A stretch of DNA of 64,000 bases. Source: Armatimonadota bacterium (GTDB taxonomy: Bacteria > Armatimonadota > Fimbriimonadia > Fimbriimonadales > Fimbriimonadaceae). The position numbers were made by a program, and so were the translations under genes. The notes below the pieces were generated by a model, which ran no database searches, was not told where the DNA came from, and saw only the letters and a program-made list of their open reading frames with translations. Below, in pieces: positions 2,996 to 42,618 of the stretch. The DNA lies in assembly GCA_037138755.1 (NCBI GenBank), contig JBAXHT010000003.1:62001-126000 (forward strand). The letters run 5' to 3'. Positions within the stretch are counted from its first letter, which is position 1. The number at the start of each line of letters is the position of its first letter.

Positions 2996-3547
2996 GTGTC
3001 AGACGGGCGGTACCGGCATTGGAGGAATCCGAACGGGGAAGGGCGGACTTGTTTCGTGACCTCTACATGCCTGGACTTCGCGCACTTGTTCGGTCGCGAC
3101 GAATTGAAAGACGTGATGGTTCGCTCCTTGCTCAGCGATTGCTGCTACTACGGAGCTCGGTTGCACGGATTCGTCGTGATGTCGCACCACATCCACTTAA
3201 TCGTTACTCCAAGCGAGACAGAGGAGATTTCGGACCTAATCCAAAAAATCAAGCGAAACTCGGCCAAGGCAATCAATCCGTTGCTGAATGATCAGGAGCG
3301 TGCTCAGCTGAAGGACCAGATCGGGCTGAATCAGCGGACGTTTTGGATGCGGTCTTTTCGTGGACTCTTGGTCGATTCCGAGAGGGTCTTTCACCAGAAG
3401 TTGGACTATATCCATACGAACCCGGTCCGAGCCTCGCTGGTGGGTCGCCCGGAGGAGTACCGGTGGAGCTCGGCGCGGATGTACTTAGATGAGGTGCTTG
3501 ACGACCACTTCGTGCTCTCCACGGAGAAGGCTCTGCGACTGTTCTAA
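2996..3547 (+). CDS. REP-associated tyrosine transposase (RAYT, IS200-like Y1 family)
   Basis: 183 residues, the usual size for a RAYT. Such enzymes are single-strand DNA nucleases related to IS200/IS605 transposases and act on REP hairpins. The metal-binding HUH signature is visible as SHHIHLIV (about residues 62-69). The C-terminal hallmark KLDYIHTNPVRASLVGRPEE with YRWSSAR (about 136-162) contains the likely catalytic tyrosine region. GTG start with an AAAAAGGGA stretch upstream. The stop codon is only 10 bp before a 25-bp palindrome, and three such palindromes follow within 270 bp. This is the expected layout of a RAYT with its own REP family. The gene appears intact. Confidence 0.9.
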   Translation: MSDGRYRHWRNPNGEGRTCFVTSTCLDFAHLFGRDELKDVMVRSLLSDCCYYGARLHGFVVMSHHIHLIVTPSETEEISDLIQKIKRNSAKAINPLLNDQERAQLKDQIGLNQRTFWMRSFRGLLVDSERVFHQKLDYIHTNPVRASLVGRPEEYRWSSARMYLDEVLDDHFVLSTEKALRLF

Positions 3548-6230: not shown

Positions 6231-7202
6231 TTATTCATCTGCGAATGGGTCGTATTCATCGAAGGCTTTTTTCGAAACCCGCATAAAGGATTCTTTCCAT
6301 TCTTCTGGCCGAAACAGTTTGAGTCGAAATTCTGAGTCGAAGACTTCCTCCGAGACCTCGAATTGGGTAATGAAGCCCTCTCGTTGTCGACGAAAGGCAT
6401 ACCAGCCGTCGTTAAATGGATCGTACTCACCAATGATAAACTGTGCTAGAAATCCGTAAGCGGCAAGAAGGTCACACAATTCCTCCACTGAGGTGAAATA
6501 GACTCTGTGTTTTATGTTGAGCTTCTTCGTGAGGGCCGAAAAAGCGGGATGTATGGACAGCATCAACTCCTTGGTCAAGTCCTTTGACTCGATCTGATTG
6601 GAAAGCACTTCTGATAAATCAACTAGAACTTTGGAGACCATGAGAAGCTCACTTAGGGAGTGGTCGTACCGTTTCTGCCGTTGGGTAACAAGAAACTGTT
6701 GAAAGAGCCCAGCCCATTGTTCTCGTAGGAGCTCGATTATTTCCTCATGGGTTCGGAAAGGGAATGTCGCGTTGTTTTGACTGAGCTGCAAGACCTCATC
6801 CAAAAATGCGAAAACCCGTATGTCGGCATGTGCTGGTTCGTAGCCTGCCAATTCAGCGTTCTTCTTGTAATTTGCGAATTCGGCGTAGATATCGGCCTGA
6901 ACAAACACGAATAATTGCTTTCCCAACTCATGGGCGATACGAAGTTCCTTCTGTGAGATTGACGTGTTTTCATCGCCAGATTTACTTCCAAACCTGGCAC
7001 CAATAATCGAAACAAGAATATCGCAGTTTTCGATTTCTCGGTAAGCACCCTCTTCGGGCTTACCATCCGCTCTATATGGAACGGAGCCTCGCTCGTGCAG
7101 AACTGTTTCATAACCCAGAGACTTGATAAAAATTTCTAGGCTCGCGCGGATCGACTGTAGGTCATAAAATGTCGAACTGACGAAGATGCGGGGCTTCGCC
7201 AT
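6231..7202 (-). CDS. DUF4062 domain protein, coupled to nrdJ
   Basis: 323 residues. The N-terminus RIFVSSTFYDLQSIRASLEI with ETVLHERGSVPY and CDILVSIIGARFGS is the classical DUF4062 opening, a TIR-like/Rossmann-type domain often found at the front of NTPase and defence-type proteins. The rest (about 150-323) is helical and unrecognised, and ends in an acidic tail with DPFADE. There is no P-loop. The ATG at 7202 overlaps the nrdJ stop codon by one base (TGATG), so translation should be coupled to nrdJ. A TTG one codon earlier is the alternative start. DUF4062 proteins are usually encoded apart from nucleotide-reduction genes, so the link is notable. Confidence 0.85.
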   Translation of the reverse strand: MAKPRIFVSSTFYDLQSIRASLEIFIKSLGYETVLHERGSVPYRADGKPEEGAYREIENCDILVSIIGARFGSKSGDENTSISQKELRIAHELGKQLFVFVQADIYAEFANYKKNAELAGYEPAHADIRVFAFLDEVLQLSQNNATFPFRTHEEIIELLREQWAGLFQQFLVTQRQKRYDHSLSELLMVSKVLVDLSEVLSNQIESKDLTKELMLSIHPAFSALTKKLNIKHRVYFTSVEELCDLLAAYGFLAQFIIGEYDPFNDGWYAFRRQREGFITQFEVSEEVFDSEFRLKLFRPEEWKESFMRVSKKAFDEYDPFADE

Positions 7203-10200
7203 CAACTACACCCGCTCGTTTCTCCGCAGCTGTTGCACTTGAGGCAGACTCCGTTCCTTACCAACGTAAACGCTCCGCAGTTGCCGCAGGGGTCGCCTTC
7301 GTAGCCTTTTAGGCGGGCTTCTCTTACCTTCGCGGCGGTGGCATCGGCAGCCGAAGGTGCTAGGTATGCGCCCGCCGCTTCGGTTGTCTTGAGTCTTGAG
7401 TCTTGAGTCTTGAGGGCCGGAGCTTCGCTCACTTCGAACAATCCCAATCCGTTGGAGCCGTTGCCGCTGACGACTCGTTCTTCGTAGACGGCAACGTTAT
7501 TCGCTTGGTTGCGGATGAGGGCGTCGGTGGGCGAACCGAGGGCTCGCCCGCCTTCAAAAGGGAGGGGGTCTTGTTGTCCTCCATCGTTGCCGGCGGAGGC
7601 GTTGTAGCCGACGCTGCTGTGGTCGTTTCTTGCGGAGCCGGGGACGTGGTCCTCGAGTTCGCCTTGTTCTTCTTCTTCATCGAAGTCCACCGCTTGTGAG
7701 GGGCTACCCATGGTGTCGGAGCGGAGGTCCTCGGGCTTGACTTGCACGAGGTCGGTTCTGCCTAGATAGGACATGCTGAGCTCGCGGAAGATGTAGTCGA
7801 TGACCGACGTGGACATTTTGATGTTGTCGTGGCCATGGACGGAGCCGTTTGGCTCGAAGCGGGTGAAGACGAACGCCTCGGTGAACTCCTCGAGCGGGAC
7901 TCCGTATTGGAGGCCGAGGGAGACGGCGATGGCGAAGCAGTTCATGAGCGACCGGAAGGCGGCGCCTTCGCGGTGCATATCGATGAAGATTTCGCCGAGG
8001 GTTCCGTCTTCGAATTCACCGGTTCGGAGGTAGACCTTGTGTCCGCCGACGCGGGCCTTTTGGGTGTAGCCTCTTCTTCGGCCAGGCATCACTCGTCGCT
8101 TGCTGATGTAGCGGTAGACGAGTTTGGTGGCGATGCGTTCGATCTCGGCGTGGGCCGAGAGGTTGGAAGTTGGAAGTTGGAGGTCGGAAGTTTCCTCACC
8201 CCCTAGCCCCCTCTCCACTTGTGGAGAGGGGGAGCCGGATTCCATTTCCATGTCGAGAGTGGCTTCTAGGATTGCGGCGGCGGAGTCGGAGCTGCTGCTG
8301 TTGAGCGGCTGGCTGAGTTTGCTGCCGTCTCGGTAGAGGGCGTTGGCCTTGATTCCGAGCTGCCAGGAGAGCCAGTAGGCGTTGTGGACGTCTTCGACGC
8401 TGGCCTCGGAGGGCAGGTTGATGGTCTTGCTGATCGCTCCGGAGAGGAACGGCTGGGCGGCGGCCATCATTCGGATGTGGCCTTCGGCGCTGATGAAGCG
8501 TTGACCCTTCTTGCCGCAACGGTTGGCGCAGTCGAAGACGGCGAGGTGCTCGTCTTTGAGGTGCGGGGCGCCTTCGACGGTCATGGAGCCGCAGACGTAC
8601 TCGTTCGCTTCTTCGATCTGGGCTTTGGTGAAGCCGAGTTCGACGAGCATGTTGAACGACCAGTCGTTGATCTGATCTTCGGTAAAGCCAAGGACTGACG
8701 TGCAGAACTCGTCACCGAAGGTGTATTTGTTGAAGACGAACTGGAGTTCGAAGGCGGATTCGAGGCCTGCTTCGAGCTTTTGGAGTTCTTGTTCTGTAAA
8801 TCCGCGAGCGGTGAGGGTTTCGTGGTTGATGTGCGGGGCACCGTTGAGGGTTTTGTAACCGACGGTGTAGCCGATAATGTCGTCGATTTGCTTTCCGTCG
8901 TAGCCCATCTTGGTGAGGGCGGGCGGGATCGACTGGTTGATGATCTTGAAGTATCCGCCGCCGGAGAGCTTTTTGAACTTAACGAGGGCGAAGTCGGGTT
9001 CGACACCGGTAGTGTCGCAGTCCATGATGAGCCCGATGGTTCCGGTGGGCGCAAGAACCGTCACCTGGGCGTTGCGGTAGCCGTACTTCTCGCCGAGCTC
9101 GAGGGCTCGATCCCACGATTTGTGGGCAGCGTGAAGCAGGTCTCCGGGGCAGAGAAGCTGGTCGATGCCGAGGGGGAGGATGCTGAGGCCTTCGTACTCC
9201 GATCGAGCGGCGTTGTAGGCGGCGCGTCGGTGGTTACGAATGACGCGGAGCATGTTTTCGCGGTTCGGCTGGTAGGAGGGGAATGGGCCGTGCTGCTTGG
9301 CCATTTCGGCGCTGGTTGCATAGCTTTCGCCCCCGAGGACGGCGGTGAGGGCTCCGGCGATGGCGAAGCCTTCGGGGCTGTCGTAGGGGATTCCCATCTG
9401 CATCAGCAGGGCGCCGAGGTTGGCGTATCCGAGGCCGAGGGTTCGGAAGTCGTAGCTGAGCTGGGCGACTTCTTTGGATGGGAACTGCGCCATGAGGACG
9501 CTGATTTCGAGGACGACGGTCCAGAGTTGGATGGCGTGCATGTAGCCTTCGACGTCGAACTTGCCGGTTTCTCGGTTGTAGAGGGTGGCCAGGTTGATGG
9601 AGGCGAGGTTGCAGGCGGTGTCATCGAGGAACATGTACTCCGAGCATGGGTTGGACGCGTTGATGCGGCCATGCGCTGGGCAGGTGTGCCACTCGTTGAT
9701 GGTGGTGTCGTATTGGAGCCCGGGGTCGGCGGAGTTCCAGGCGGCTTGGCAGATGTCGTCCCAAAGGCCTTTGGCTTTGATGGACTTGACGGTTTTGCCG
9801 CTGGTTCGGGCGGTCAGGCTCCAGTCGGAATCGTTCTCGACGGCTTTGAAGAAGTCGTTGCTGACCCGTACGGAGTTGTTGGAGTTCTGACCGGAGACGG
9901 TGATGTAGGCTTCGGACTCGTAGCCGGTGTCGAAGGTTGGGAACTCGATGCTGGTGTAGCCCTGCTCGGCGAACTGGATGGCGCGCTGGATGTAGTTGGT
10001 GGGGATTTCGTCGAGCTTGGCTTCGGCGATGGCGGTCCAGAGGGCTTTGTTGGTTCGCGGGTTGGCGTTGACTGTTCCGTCGACGTAGGCGGCCTTCATC
10101 ACGTTGTTGATGTGGCGCTGATTGAGCTTGGAACCGGTGACGAGGGAGGCAACCTTTTGCTCTTCCTTGACCTTCCAGTTGACGAATTCTTCGATGTCGG

Positions 10201-11023
10201 GGTGGTTGATATCGAGGCAGACCATCTTGGCTGCTCTTCTTGTAGTGCCGCCTGATTTGATCGCTCCAGCGGATCGGTCGCCGACCCGGAGGAAGCTCAT
10301 GAGACCGGAGGATTTTCCGCCGCCGCTGAGTCGTTCGTTCTCGCCGCGGATCTTAGAGAAGTTGGTGCCGACTCCGCTGCCGTACTTGAAGATTCGGGCT
10401 TCGCGGGTCCAGAGGTCCATGATTCCGCCCTCGTTGACCAGATCATCTTTGACGCTGAGGATGAAGCAGGCGTGGGGCTGGGGTCGCTCGTAGGCGTTGG
10501 TGGACTTCTTCAGCTCGCCGTTACGGGGATCGACGTAGTAGTGACCTTGAGCCGAGCCGGTGATGCCGTAGGCGAAGTGCATTCCGGTGTTGAACCACTG
10601 GGGGCTGTTTGGCGCGGCGACTTGGCGGGCGAGCATGTTGACCATCTCGTCGTAAAAGGTTTGGGCGTCGTCGGCGGAATCGAAGTAGTGGAACTTCTCG
10701 CCCCAGTGTCGCCAGCATCCGGCGAGGCGGTGGAAGACCTGGCGAGAGTCAGTCTCGCATTCAGCCGATGGGGTGACGACAGCGGCGTTTTCGCCGGCGT
10801 ATTCGACTCCGCCGACTTTGCCTGGGGTGAGGCCTGCTTTGCGGAAATACTTTTGCGCCAGGATGTCGGTCGCTACTTGGCTCCAACCGGACGGAACCAT
10901 GACGTTTTCCATCAGGAAGACGGTGGAGCCATCGGGGTTGCGGATCTCGCTCTTACGCGGCTCAAAGTTGATGCCTGCGTACGGGTTTTGACCAGATTGC
11001 GTAAAGTAGCGTCGAATTTTCAT
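7202..11023 (-). CDS. nrdJ: Vitamin B12-dependent ribonucleotide reductase (class II)
   Basis: 1273 residues. It reduces ribonucleotides to deoxyribonucleotides using adenosylcobalamin, without needing oxygen. Landmarks include [12 protein letters not shown] (substrate-site cysteine), [34 protein letters not shown] (active-site loop), [20 protein letters not shown], a TSCPD-type domain after residue ~970, and a C-terminal zinc ribbon CGNCGAF...CLKCNSCG with the terminal redox cysteines. The start overlaps the nrdR stop by 4 bp (ATGA). Two odd linkers are encoded by repeats: a palindrome plus heptamers at 8162-8232, and heptamers at 7386-7413. Both lie in variable regions outside the catalytic barrel. 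NrdR boxes upstream of nrdR should control the operon. Confidence 0.97.
7386..7413. repeat. Heptanucleotide tandem repeat inside nrdJ
   Basis: Four perfect copies of GTCTTGA. On the coding strand they read as [12 protein letters not shown], so the repeat shows a 7-residue (21-bp) period in the protein. Confidence 0.85.
8162..8189. repeat. Heptanucleotide tandem repeat inside nrdJ
   Basis: Four units of GTTGGAA with small changes (GTTGGAG, GTCGGAA). They encode the linker segment DLQLPTSNL. Confidence 0.85.
8207..8232. repeat. Perfect palindrome inside nrdJ
   Basis: CCCCCTCTCCAC, loop TT, GTGGAGAGGGGG: a 12-bp perfect stem that encodes SPSPQVERG in frame. It sits 18 bp from a heptamer array and looks like an inserted palindromic repeat tolerated in a linker. 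Confidence 0.8.
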
Positions 11024-29464: not shown

Positions 29465-29575
29465 CCGCCCCTATTCCTTATGCCGATTTTCGCGGCAGGG
29501 TTCCAGTTTACAGTCAAACGGTGAGGCAACAGGCTCCAGGATTCAGGATTGAGTTTTCACGCGAGGACTTTCCCT

Positions 29576-39152: not shown

Positions 39153-39509
39153 ATGGAGTTTTTCAACCCAGAGTCCGGCGCGCCTGAGAGTGCATTGGAG
39201 GTCATGATGGTCCCACTGCTGTTCCTTGTATTCGCAATCCTTGCGTATTCCGCCTCAAATCGGTACCTGGAGAACGAGGGGAAGCGACCTAAGTGGATGC
39301 CAGTTGTCTATGTCGCCTTCGGATTGGCACTGCTTTTCGGATTTCAGAAGTACATGTTTACGCGAGAGCTTCTGTACGCGAACACCTTGACAACGGGCAA
39401 GGTGCGGTATGCGCACTACCTAGGTTTCCTTCTCCCGCTCCTGACTGGAATCGGAGTTGGCATCAGGGAGTTCTTCCGAAAGCGGGCAAACGCGGAGCGT
39501 CTTTACTAG
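39153..39509 (+). CDS. Small membrane protein of unknown function
   Basis: 118 residues with three hydrophobic segments (MVPLLFLVFAILAYSA, WMPVVYVAFGLALLFGF, GFLLPLLTGIGVGI). GAGAGGAG before the ATG is a good ribosome site. It ends 25 bp before the phenylalanine hydroxylase gene. No family recognised. Confidence 0.7.
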   Translation: MEFFNPESGAPESALEVMMVPLLFLVFAILAYSASNRYLENEGKRPKWMPVVYVAFGLALLFGFQKYMFTRELLYANTLTTGKVRYAHYLGFLLPLLTGIGVGIREFFRKRANAERLY

Positions 39510-39534
39510 GTTTCCTAGTAAACTTGCGGACACA

Positions 39535-40479
39535 ATGACAACTGCGAACGAAGAAGTTCCGGTTCAAATCGGTCTCACTACTAACGAAGCCCCGTTTATT
39601 GAAGAGCGCAAGGCGGCTGGCGAGCTCTACATCCAGCAACCGTACAATCTCTATTCGGAAGCGAACCACGAGGCTTGGGCTGCGCTCTACTCGCGAATGG
39701 CTCCGCGCTGGGAAAAGTATGCTAACCAACACTTCATGCGGGGCATCGCAAATCTGTGCCTCGATCCTCGGCGAGTCCCGAAGCTTGATGATGTTAACCA
39801 GTTTCTAAATCCCCTGACTGGGTTTAAGGCAAAGGCCGTTGCTGGCTACGTTCCAGCATTTATGTTCTTCGATTGCCTTCGCAATCGCGAGTTTCCCACC
39901 ACGATCACCATCCGGCGCGGTGACAAGCTCGACTATCTTCCGGAACCCGATATCTTCCACGACATCGCTGGTCATGTGCCAATGCACACAGACCGAGCTT
40001 TTGCCGACACGTTGGTTAGGTTCGGTGATCTGGCTCATCTCGCAGCGGAGATCGCTCAAGGAATCAAGGATCCCGAGAAGCAGGTCAGAAAGGTCGAGAG
40101 CATTATCAAAGCGATGGCCAGGTTCTTCTGGTTCACCATCGAATTCGGATTGATGAAAGAATCCGACGGGATGAAGGTGTACGGCAGCGGTTTGCTCAGC
40201 TCATATGGTGAGATCGAGCACTGTGTCGAATCGCCAGAAGTACAACGATATCCGATCCAGCTCGAATGGGTCATCAACCAGTACTTTGAAATCGACCACT
40301 ACCAACCCTTGCTGTTCTGGGTTGACAGTTTTGATCATCTCTTCTCGCTCGTTGGCGAGCTTGAGCTGTGGATGAAAGACGGCAAACTCGACAACGTCTC
40401 GCCAGGTGAGCCGCTTGTCAACGAGGCGGATTTGCGGAGCTTTATTGCCGCCGAATTCAGCTCTCAATCGGTAGACTAG
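39535..40479 (+). CDS. phhA: Phenylalanine 4-monooxygenase
   Basis: 314 residues. A biopterin-dependent aromatic amino acid hydroxylase that turns phenylalanine into tyrosine. The iron site is visible as PDIFHDIAGHVPMH (two His) and the Glu in FWFTIEFGLM. GFKAKAVAGYVPAFMFFDCL and LLSSYGEIEHC are conserved family segments. The ATG at 39535 is preferred; an upstream extension overlaps the membrane protein in another frame. No pterin-recycling gene is adjacent. Confidence 0.92.
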   Translation: MTTANEEVPVQIGLTTNEAPFIEERKAAGELYIQQPYNLYSEANHEAWAALYSRMAPRWEKYANQHFMRGIANLCLDPRRVPKLDDVNQFLNPLTGFKAKAVAGYVPAFMFFDCLRNREFPTTITIRRGDKLDYLPEPDIFHDIAGHVPMHTDRAFADTLVRFGDLAHLAAEIAQGIKDPEKQVRKVESIIKAMARFFWFTIEFGLMKESDGMKVYGSGLLSSYGEIEHCVESPEVQRYPIQLEWVINQYFEIDHYQPLLFWVDSFDHLFSLVGELELWMKDGKLDNVSPGEPLVNEADLRSFIAAEFSSQSVD

Positions 40480-40488
40480 GAGAAAGAA

Positions 40489-41751
40489 ATGCGTGTAGAA
40501 ATCTTGATGCCCGAGCTTGGTGAATCTGTCCATGAAGGAACAGTCAGCCGCTGGTTAAAACAGGTAGGCGACACCGTCAAGGAAGACGAGCCGGTAGTTG
40601 AGATCATGACCGATAAGGTCAACACCGAACTCGGTGCTCCTTCGGCGGGCGTGCTGGCCGAAATCGTTATCGGCGAAGGTGCCCCAGTCAAAGTTTTTGA
40701 AGCGATGGGCTTTATCGAGACGGATGCAGCTGCCGCTGCAAGTGCACCTGCTCCTGTAGCCAAGAAGGAAGAAGCTCCGAAAGCCGAATCGCCTGCTCCA
40801 ACGCCGGCAGAACTTGCAACTTCCAACCTTCAACCTTCAACTGAGAAGCGCTGGTACACCCCGCTCGTCCGCGCTATGGCGAAGGACAACAATGTCTCCG
40901 ACGCCCAACTCGCCACGATCACTGGCTCTGGCGAAGGCGGACGGGTTACCAAGAAGGATCTCGAGGCATTCCTTGCAGGTAGCGGCTCCAAAGCTGCTCC
41001 GGTCGCAAAGGCTCCAGAATTCAAGGCTCCGCCCACAACCGTAGCTGGGCCAGACCAAGAAGTCACCCCTCTGGCTGGAATGCGAAAGATGATCGCCGAC
41101 CACATGGTCAAGTCATCACAGGTCCCAACCGTCACCACGATCACCGAAGTCGACGTTACTCACATGGTTAACTTCCGGGATAAGAACAAGGAGACGTTCC
41201 TTGAGACCTACGGTGTCAAGCTCACCTACACTCCGTTCTTTATCAAAGCTCTCACCGAGGCTGTTGTCGAGTTCCCGCTAATGAACGCCGCCCTGATGCC
41301 TGATAACAACATTGTGAAAACCAAGGGCGTTCACATGGGCGTCGCGGTTGCGCTTGGAGCCAAAGGCGAAGGCGGCCTCATCGTCCCCGTCATCCGAGAC
41401 TGTCACTCTAAGTCGCTGATCGACATCGCTCGGGACCTGGATGTCATCGCGAAGAAGGCTCGGTCTAACTCGCTTTCCGTTGCTGATGTGCAAGGCGGAA
41501 CCTTCACGTTGACGAATCCGGGTACCTACGGTGCTCTGTTCGGAACCCCGATGATCAACGCGCCCCAGGCGGGAATCTTGGGCGTTTACGCGATCAAGAA
41601 GACCCCGGTCATTGTCGACGACATGATTGCCATCCGCTCTATCATGCACCTGGTTCTGACATACGATCACCGGCTGATTGACGGCATGCTGGCCGGAGCT
41701 TTCTTGGCTTCCGTTCGCGATAAGCTTGCGAAGTTCGATTTCTTTAAGTAA
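40489..41751 (+). CDS. 2-oxoacid dehydrogenase E2 subunit (dihydrolipoyl acyltransferase)
   Basis: 420 residues. Domain order: lipoyl domain (Lys43 in IMTDKVNTE), Ala/Pro-rich linker, peripheral subunit-binding domain (TPLVRAMAKDNNVSDAQLAT, GEGGRVTKKDLE), second linker, and acyltransferase domain ending in YDHRLIDGMLAGAFL with the catalytic His and Asp. Strong ribosome site AGGAGAAAGAA before the ATG. Which 2-oxoacid is used (pyruvate, 2-oxoglutarate or branched-chain) cannot be said because E1 and E3 are absent. The first linker contains heptanucleotide repeats. Confidence 0.93.
   Translation: MRVEILMPELGESVHEGTVSRWLKQVGDTVKEDEPVVEIMTDKVNTELGAPSAGVLAEIVIGEGAPVKVFEAMGFIETDAAAAASAPAPVAKKEEAPKAESPAPTPAELATSNLQPSTEKRWYTPLVRAMAKDNNVSDAQLATITGSGEGGRVTKKDLEAFLAGSGSKAAPVAKAPEFKAPPTTVAGPDQEVTPLAGMRKMIADHMVKSSQVPTVTTITEVDVTHMVNFRDKNKETFLETYGVKLTYTPFFIKALTEAVVEFPLMNAALMPDNNIVKTKGVHMGVAVALGAKGEGGLIVPVIRDCHSKSLIDIARDLDVIAKKARSNSLSVADVQGGTFTLTNPGTYGALFGTPMINAPQAGILGVYAIKKTPVIVDDMIAIRSIMHLVLTYDHRLIDGMLAGAFLASVRDKLAKFDFFK
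40814..40841. repeat. Heptanucleotide tandem repeat inside the E2 gene
   Basis: Four units: TTGCAAC, TTCCAAC, CTTCAAC, CTTCAAC. They encode ATSNLQPST in the flexible linker. The reverse complement resembles the GTTGGAA family in nrdJ. Confidence 0.75.
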
Positions 41752-41919
41752 CCAGCCAACAACTCCCCACTCGATGGGGAAGGGTCCGCTCAAAGGTTGC
41801 CTCAACGGCAAGCTTTGAGTGGAGGATGTGACTCAGGTCGAACCGGTGGGTCCGTTCTTGTTTCCTACAAGCCGCCGTTTTCGAGGATTGTTGTACCGTT
41901 TGAGCGAAGCCTGAACGGC

Positions 41920-41944
41920 GAGAACTGCGACGCGTTTTGGTGGG
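41920..41944 (+). repeat. 25-bp direct repeat, first copy
   Basis: GAGAACTGCGACGCGTTTTG followed by GTGGG. The second copy at 42043 differs at two positions. Confidence 0.8.
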
Positions 41945-42042
41945 GACACCGGGTTCAAATGGGGTCTCATTTCTCGATTCTGGTGGGGACAAGTGGGGAC
42001 AGCAATTTGGCCTCGGTCATTGGCTTACAGCAATTAGCGGAA

Positions 42043-42067
42043 GAGAACTGCGACGCCTTTTGATGGG
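42043..42067 (+). repeat. 25-bp direct repeat, second copy
   Basis: GAGAACTGCGACGCCTTTTG followed by ATGGG, 123 bp downstream of the first copy. Confidence 0.8.
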
Positions 42068-42127
42068 TAGTAAGGTTCAACGCGGTACGTGTTTGTGGAG
42101 AAAGGTCGGTAGGGGTGGGTAGGAGTG

Positions 42128-42154
42128 CTGGGAGTTGGGAGTTGGGAGTTGGGA
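42128..42154. repeat. Heptanucleotide tandem repeat, intergenic
   Basis: Three perfect GTTGGGA units and a partial one before them, a close variant of the GTTGGAA array in nrdJ. Confidence 0.85.
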
Positions 42155-42618
42155 GTGAGGCTTCTTCATCGCATTGCTTGAACAACAGTGGGGCAGTTGA
42201 GATACCCGGACTTGATCGGGATACTCCGTGCGCGGTCTGCAGAATTTGATCTTCTACATATAGGCGAAGAAGTCGAGGGTTTGTCAACCTGCGATTTGCT
42301 TTGGGGCGATCATTTTGATCGCGCCGGTTCCCACCCACCACGGCCCCGTTTGGCTGGTGCTTCGAATTTGGTGGCTTGTCTGGGAGTACGGGCTCGCTAC
42401 GCTCGGTGGACCTTTGGGAGGGCGGGTTTTGCTCTATTTTGTTGGTGGGCAGGTTGGGGGGCTCCCAGGTGATTTCGGCTTGGTTTATCCCGAAGTCTCG
42501 TGACCGTGAGCTGGTAAAAATGTTCTTAGGCAGGCAAAATTTGAAAGACGGGTAGATGAAGACTACTTCTGAGGATGGTGCTAAGACAGTCTCCTTCCTC
42601 CTGTATCCCCTGTCCTGA

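Follow-up and report, generated by a model that had tools for sequence, protein, structure and literature searches.

The window analyzed here is the whole 64-kb stretch of DNA, and positions given without a further label refer to it. The gene for E2, a 2-oxoacid dehydrogenase acyltransferase, lies just downstream of a biopterin-dependent aromatic amino acid hydroxylase domain (39457-40479) and is followed by an intergenic region with a tandem array of a seven-nucleotide unit. Further arrays of period 7 are found within E2 itself, within the ribonucleotide reductase gene nrdJ and, more weakly, at one other place:

7202-11023, minus strand: nrdJ, class II ribonucleotide reductase, 1273 aa (PF02867, PF08471, PF12637), which hosts two arrays
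7386-7414, plus strand: nrdJ site b, GTCTTGA x4.1, in the C-terminal linker of nrdJ (Tandem Repeats Finder)
about 8159-8191, plus strand: nrdJ site a, GAAGTTG x4.7, in an nrdJ linker (by Tandem Repeats Finder 8162-8192, as GTTGGAA)
29524-29553, plus strand: weak period-7 array AGGCAAC AGGCTCC AGGATTC AGGATTG AG, borderline score 13
40489-41751, plus strand: E2, 420 aa (PF00364 at 4-69, PF02817 at 123-159, PF00198 at 189-415)
about 40811-40841, G-rich strand minus: E2-linker array AACTTGC AACTTCC AACCTTC AACCTTC AAC (40811-40842 by Tandem Repeats Finder)
41920-42440, plus strand: dispersed intergenic repeat that includes the 42129 array (blastn and alignment of copies)
42129-42156, plus strand: perfect intergenic array TGGGAGT x4, downstream of E2 (Tandem Repeats Finder)

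A preliminary description of this DNA had placed heptamer arrays in the E2 linker (40814-40841) and in the intergenic region behind the gene (42128-42154), and both are there. The first is imperfect, its C-rich strand being the coding plus strand of E2; it translates as LATSNLQPST and sits between the lipoyl and E3-binding domains. The units of nrdJ site a read GAGGTTG GAAGTTG GAAGTTG GAGGTCG GAAGT, and site b is an additional array that the preliminary description did not contain. Beside site a, at 8190-8240, nrdJ carries an in-frame palindromic insert, CCCTCTCC...GGAGAGGG, that has no counterpart in either of the two sister species considered below. The weak array at 29524-29553 is placed between two minus-strand ORFs and has an inverted partner close by (score 12).

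The perfect array at 42129 belongs to a dispersed repeat of about 0.5 kb that is marked by two GAGAACTGCGACGC boxes and GTGGGGACAAGTGGGGACAG, with copies in L017 (15705-16225), L109, L145, L008, L154, L112, L160 and L151. In the L017 paralogue, GGAAGTTGGAAGTTGGG stands in place of the array. A protein-family search of this repeat found none, and Rfam gave no match there, its single match type over the whole window being a tRNA.

Period-7 arrays exceed chance and comprise many units

The window contains three exact period-7 runs with at least 12 matched bases and four with at least 10, compared with 0.00 and 0.06 per shuffle in 100 dinucleotide shuffles, and every other period from 4 to 15 gives at most one exact run with at least 12 matched bases. 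In a sample made up of the window and 60 stretches of 20 kb from the same genome (1.264 Mb of 3.27 Mb), 15 exact period-7 runs of at least 12 matched bases were counted against 0.0 in three shuffles, with periods 6, 8, 9, 10, 11 and 12 giving 2, 0, 3, 0, 0 and 4. Not all 60 stretches were blind, some being window flanks and two being places with known pattern hits; the 40 blind stretches (800 kb) hold eight runs at period 7, none at periods 5, 6, 8, 10, 11 and 13, and three each at periods 9 and 12, which are codon multiples. The density is uneven, as the first 20 blind stretches alone give just two of these eight runs. An excess of 15 over 0.0, with eight in the blind part, refutes an array frequency equal to that expected from base composition, the outcome that the preliminary description had set against its own reading, and the shuffles, neighboring periods and blind stretches rule out chance or composition as the source. 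By their excess over both shuffled sequence and neighboring periods, the arrays are heptanucleotide repeats of the SSR/LSSR kind.

What did not hold up is a single heptanucleotide family of the GTTGGAA/GTTGGGA type, since the 15 runs comprise 13 units, among which AAGACTC alone recurs (three times), and units within an array vary around a core. This commonest unit, AAGACTC/GAGTCTT, has no GG tract, yet it forms arrays and element arms. We also discarded an AACT core taken alone: the reversed-pattern control itself matched another heptamer family, TCAAGAC, which has 13 hits in this genome, so the AACT-core comparison is not clean.

Across the phylum, GTTGGNN x3 was found in 43 of 291 genomes and AACTNNN x3 in 87 of 291; counts of the latter range from 0 to 319 and differ strongly within one genus. 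Stretches of one relative, G226 (170 kb, chosen on hits), hold 67 fuzzy period-7 arrays against none in one shuffle, with no other period between 4 and 12 exceeding four. In some relatives the reversed patterns meant as controls are very abundant too (TCAANNN x3, for example, has 174 hits in G131 and 132 in G228; G229 is a further case), which means that large heptamer families of other kinds are present there. A 400-kb sample of G080 (L124-L143) has four exact period-8 runs with at least 12 matched bases, against 0.0 shuffled, and five at period 7.

The exact string (TGGGAGT)4G occurs in 47 stretches of genome contigs; going by record titles, these represent at least six phyla and include Cyanobacteria, Bacteroidota, Planctomycetes, Chloroflexota, Gemmatimonadaceae, Acidobacteria and a Porticoccaceae MAG, and heptamers are already in print for Beggiatoaceae, Bacteroidetes and Xanthomonas. 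The preliminary description had suggested that the heptameric short tandem repeats (STRR) of cyanobacteria would here extend to another phylum. Heptameric tandem repeats of the cyanobacterial sort are indeed present, above chance, but the type is not limited to Cyanobacteria and this phylum, and with identical (TGGGAGT)4 arrays in several phyla such an extension is ordinary. The feature common to these heptamers is a 7-nt period with a short core, not one unit. STRR is thus a description and not an explanation; the association with a protein family set out below explains more.

PF05635 genes are flanked by heptamer arrays

Heptamer arrays are associated with genes of PF05635, the 23S_rRNA_IVP family (23S-rRNA-IVP/S23; "four helix bundle protein" in NCBIfam). 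Thirty loci from a phylum-wide PF05635 search, taken by score and not by repeats, have 34 period-7 arrays within 250 bp of the match (2.30/kb) versus eight farther out (0.12/kb). Arrays stand on both sides of the gene at 14 loci, on one side at five and, within 250 bp, on neither side at 11. Period 8 gives six arrays near and none far, and period 9 five near and four far; some PF05635 elements use period 8 or 9 in place of 7. Control gene ends yielded one period-7 array for nrdJ (30 loci) and none for E2 (19 loci), and none of 26 Y1_Tnp loci (30 fetched, four dropped for short flanks) has a period-7 array within 250 bp.

The association extends to other phyla, where 17 of 19 genomes reached via (TGGGAGT)4G loci hold PF05635 genes. 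These genomes were picked for having heptamers, and the near/far comparison was made within loci: 28 loci from 16 genomes (30 loci, two skipped at contig edges) show 42 arrays near (3.00/kb) versus 17 far (0.25/kb), with arrays on both sides at 12 and on one side at another 12 (24/28 in all). Represented among them are Nostoc, Plectonema, Scytonematopsis, Chamaesiphon, Rhodopirellula, Flavobacterium, Tepidiforma and a Gemmatimonadaceae MAG, whose PF05635 gene has the arms GAGTTGG/AACTCCC, the unit of the window's 42129 array. Over 85 genomes of the family, heptamer counts correlate with PF05635 counts (rho 0.57; partial 0.44) and with Y1 counts (rho 0.44; partial 0.18 given PF05635), the p-values being too small because the genomes are related.

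Arrays also occur widely without the gene. The PF05635 profile hit just one of the 47 (TGGGAGT)4G loci and none of the G226, G228 and G235 stretches, and gene-less arrays outnumber gene-bearing elements in every set looked at.

Two elements are absent from sister species

The genome of the window has PF05635 genes at L148 (8450-8758, plus strand) and L152 (15776-16084), both flanked by arrays, and a third at L022 (12802-13095, E 6e-12) without flanking arrays. The nearest solved structure to the protein is 2GSC, XCC0516. The relatives with the most similar nrdJ, G090 and G096 (96 and 94%), lack both the L148 and the L152 element. At L148, the two arrays flank a stretch absent from both sisters, an insertion of about 435 bp between two genes that are adjacent there; a minus-strand ORF at this locus gave no match in a Pfam search. 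The L152 element occupies the gap between two convergent genes, a gap of about 65-75 bp in the sisters. Judged from these alignments, which supply the two empty sites known relative to the sisters, L148 and L152 are insertions, and the elements are probably mobile. In the predicted folds, the arms form the basal stem and the gene lies in the loop (z -3.84 for L148, -3.88 for L152).

The search for a mobilizing function gave negative results. No convincing target-site duplication was seen, a 4-base match beside the L148 arms being judged untrustworthy, and no recombinase was found within the element. A reverse transcriptase was rejected, as a search for RVT_1 gave none in this genome or in the heptamer-rich G080, G084, G097 and G101, and so was the Y1 transposase, with no arrays at its 26 loci although its counts correlate with those of the heptamers.

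Arms are complementary, polar and built on a core

Compared with the reverse complement of their 150-bp flanks, arrays reach mean local scores of 11.0 in G226 (67 arrays), 10.1 in G228 (38) and 9.1 in the genome of the window (33), against 6.7-7.0 for shuffled and 6.9-7.4 for directly oriented flanks. At PF05635 loci, this complementarity is element-specific: left and right arms match in inverted orientation with a score of 26.2 within an element versus 11.1 when swapped, and an arm's own partner is the best match of all at 17 of 29 loci (one locus was dropped for a short flank). Y1 loci have inverted repeats too (38.2 vs 13.2), but these are not heptameric. Strand polarity is fixed along the PF05635 gene, with G exceeding C in 34 versus 3 of the 5' arms and C exceeding G in 37 versus 5 of the 3' arms (p 1e-13; arms at a lower score limit, ties left out). 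Two hairpins of the genome of the window fold with z -6.4 (L146) and z -2.2 (L022).

The units themselves share AG[T/C], which appears in the consensus of 99 of 179 arrays of the phylum set versus 51.6 after letter shuffling (maximum 66 of 200), a comparison in which arrays within one genome are not independent. Variation between units is half as large in the AG[T/C] columns (0.093 vs 0.182). Among trinucleotide controls, the effect is missing for AGG, GTG and GAT, partial for GTT and GAG, and reversed for ATG. Co-evolution of unit and protein was rejected: the 11 PF05635 pairs with at least 60% identity have a unit similarity of 5.8 of 7, versus 3.7 below 45% identity, but across all pairs the relation between the similarity of units and the identity of proteins does not reach significance (76 of 1000 permutations).

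These properties bear on the possibility that the arrays arise by plain replication slippage, with 7 nt as the favored slip length (set by polymerase footprint and poor repair of large loops) and an incidental association with the gene. Slippage would suit the many different units and the copy-number difference at L106, where the G090 array is shorter. It also has precedent, as heptamers have been reported to outnumber the other long SSR classes in most genomes, with slippage and polymerase contact length proposed as the cause (PMC4679880, PMC4692102). We nonetheless consider slippage an unlikely origin. It does not account for inverted arms that are complementary and element-specific, for a fixed polarity along one gene family, for the near absence of arrays at nrdJ (1), E2 (0) and Y1 (0) loci or for insertions of whole elements such as L148 and L152, although it may still set copy number.

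Most of the compared arrays are not conserved between sister species

Arrays differ between sister species in unit, presence and copy number, but some are kept. At nrdJ site a there is a TTCCAAC array in the genome of the window, a CAAGACT array in G090 and none in G096; at site b, TCAAGAC x4 is present in both the genome of the window and G090 and there is none in G096. In a six-genome nrdJ alignment, site a has arrays of three unit kinds in four genomes and site b has arrays in three. The regular E2 array has a degenerate counterpart in G090 and none in G096, and for the 42129 region no alignable counterpart was found in G090 or G096. Seven more array sites were compared with both sisters, and at L148, L152, L146 and L114 neither sister has the array.

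Two of the remaining sites directly precede the starts of groEL- and upp-like genes, names that come from reading the translated starts and not from a family search. G090 lacks the groEL-leader array (L022 13635-13669); G096 keeps five ordered units of it with a single mismatch, although the surrounding spacer is not alignable. In the upp leader (L153 2508-2544), five CTG at exact 7-nt spacing are kept in G090 despite differing spacers, an arrangement reached in none of 20000 shuffles. Such leaders, together with the TAACTGA repeats described several nucleotides upstream of start codons in Beggiatoaceae (PMC4679880), would fit arrays that are host regulatory sites, in which a protein binds cores 7 nt apart in RNA leaders. 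As a general account this is improbable: the majority of compared sites are not conserved in the sisters, arrays also lie within genes and between convergent genes, and the PF05635 association is left unexplained, unless regulation is a secondary use of the arms.

A comparably low probability attaches to the idea that arrays are gene-independent and that PF05635 genes preferentially insert, or persist, in heptamer hairpins that were already there. We keep it in consideration because gene-less arrays and hairpins far outnumber gene-bearing ones; in addition, the L152 element stands where the sisters have a short, terminator-like stretch. However, arm polarity follows the gene, and where whole elements were inserted the sisters are without arms as well as gene. 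Retention of the arrays as G-quadruplex-forming repeats is very improbable as a general cause, for although TGGGAGT x4 offers four GGG tracts, four units are the commonest array length in the pooled set and a four-unit preference with quadruplex formation in vitro has been reported (PMC4692102), other arms are G-poor and AAGACTC/GAGTCTT has no GG tract.

Discussion

Based on the association, complementarity and polarity described above, we propose, as a reading that we hold to be reasonably probable, that the heptamer arrays found here and in related genomes represent arms of small hairpin elements carrying a PF05635 gene. Measured across both arms, complete elements span 419-743 bp and consist of a G-rich array, the gene and a complementary C-rich array; in the RNA, the arms would pair as a stem with the gene in the loop, as in 23S rRNA intervening sequences. 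Such elements would be located between protein genes and not in rRNA, with arm pairs lacking the gene and single arms more numerous than complete elements.

Neither a PF05635 gene nor an inverted partner was found near the window's arrays at nrdJ sites a and b, E2 and 42129. The unit of nrdJ site b is that of the L148 arms (it is common to 6 of 33 arrays in this genome, both arms included), and we therefore read these four arrays, with moderate confidence, as solitary arms that descend from PF05635 elements: two in nrdJ linkers, one in the E2 linker and one in an intergenic repeat. Among arrays of this genome, an inverted partner (within 450 bp, score at least 11) accompanies none of 10 in protein genes and 14 of 23 others (Fisher p 0.001; "inside gene" status set by hand). 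A possible reason for the survival of arrays within genes is that a single array free of stops can be tolerated as a linker, whereas a paired one would fold the mRNA.

The protein TRAP reads spaced triplets. In a similar manner, a ring of PF05635 protein might read the array, one 7-nt unit per subunit, with AG[T/C] as the core and the rest of the unit as a variable spacer. Contact of one core per 7 nt by each ring subunit would explain period, core and spacer together, and slippage would then alter copy number. XCC0516 (2GSC) is a homopentameric toroid (PMC4990558).

It is also possible, although we offer this only tentatively, that all bacterial heptamer repeats are arms or relics of one old selfish IVP element whose single arms are reused by hosts. 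Cyanobacterial STRR, the TAACTGA repeats of Beggiatoaceae, GGGAATC of Xanthomonas and the heptamers described here would then share an origin, and the period would be 7 because a pentameric ring reads its own arms, one unit per subunit. Host reuse would include protein linkers, terminators and the leaders of groEL and upp.

23S rRNA intervening sequences are excised from the RNA by RNase III. The elements at L148 and L152 resemble these sequences in carrying a PF05635 gene, in terminal inverted repeats predicted to form a basal stem and in their similar size, but they lie between protein-coding genes and not in 23S rRNA. The elements described here also differ in having arms made wholly of 7-nt units that vary from element to element, and in their many gene-less copies. 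The intervening sequence of Coxiella burnetii 23S rRNA (428 nt) carries an S23p gene, a 28-bp terminal stem and, before the start codon, tandem heptamers whose copy number differs between strains (PMC4990558). Within the parts of the open-licence literature consulted, this one rRNA element is the only link between heptamers and S23p, and a general link was not found. Both rRNA intervening sequences with a PF05635 protein and repeats of heptamers have been described; an element that combines the two throughout a genome was not found in that literature.

The classical cyanobacterial STRR units are CCCCART, TTGTCAT and CAACAGT, and they are not among the 13 units of this genome. STRR are otherwise alike in their head-to-tail 7-nt units, intergenic position and many copies, and the PF05635 genes of Nostoc, Plectonema, Scytonematopsis and Chamaesiphon have heptamer arms. 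The Beggiatoaceae TAACTGA repeats share the 7-nt period and an ACTG-type core right before start codons, as in the groEL and upp leaders here; there, however, one unit is used per genome, and the sections of that report available to us give no PF05635 link (PMC4679880). GGGAATC of Xanthomonas and GGGGAYT of Nostoc are likewise G-rich heptamers with a four-unit preference, forming close inverted pairs in Xanthomonas, and their G-rich strand coincides with the coding strand downstream of stops but with the non-coding one upstream of starts (PMC4692102). They were read as quadruplexes, with no protein gene implicated in the portions available, and the functional role of long heptamer repeats was said to be one that "still remains to be elucidated" (PMC4692102).

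REP/RAYT and MITE-type elements are also small hairpin elements whose gene-less copies outnumber gene-bearing ones. Unlike REP/RAYT, the elements in this genome are without a transposase, and Y1_Tnp loci have inverted repeats without heptamer arrays. PF05635 resembles Avd (PMC10053308), but a retroelement of the DGR type differs in that this genome has no reverse transcriptase (0 RVT_1).

A tie to one structurally solved protein family would give a testable cause for the preference of long bacterial tandem repeats for 7 nt. It would also provide a setting for the "four helix bundle protein", which is very common but has no known function, and would widen the rRNA intervening sequence, in several phyla, into an element found throughout the genome. 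Domain linkers of core genes, nrdJ and E2 among them, appear to take up the arrays.

Two Y1_Tnp occurrences were seen in passing. The window itself has a Y1_Tnp (IS200-like) domain at 3122-3415 on the plus strand. At L123 (8279-9796), outside the 26-locus Y1_Tnp set, one ORF of 505 aa joins a PrmC methyltransferase to Y1_Tnp, with a CTTCCAA heptamer array between the two domains.
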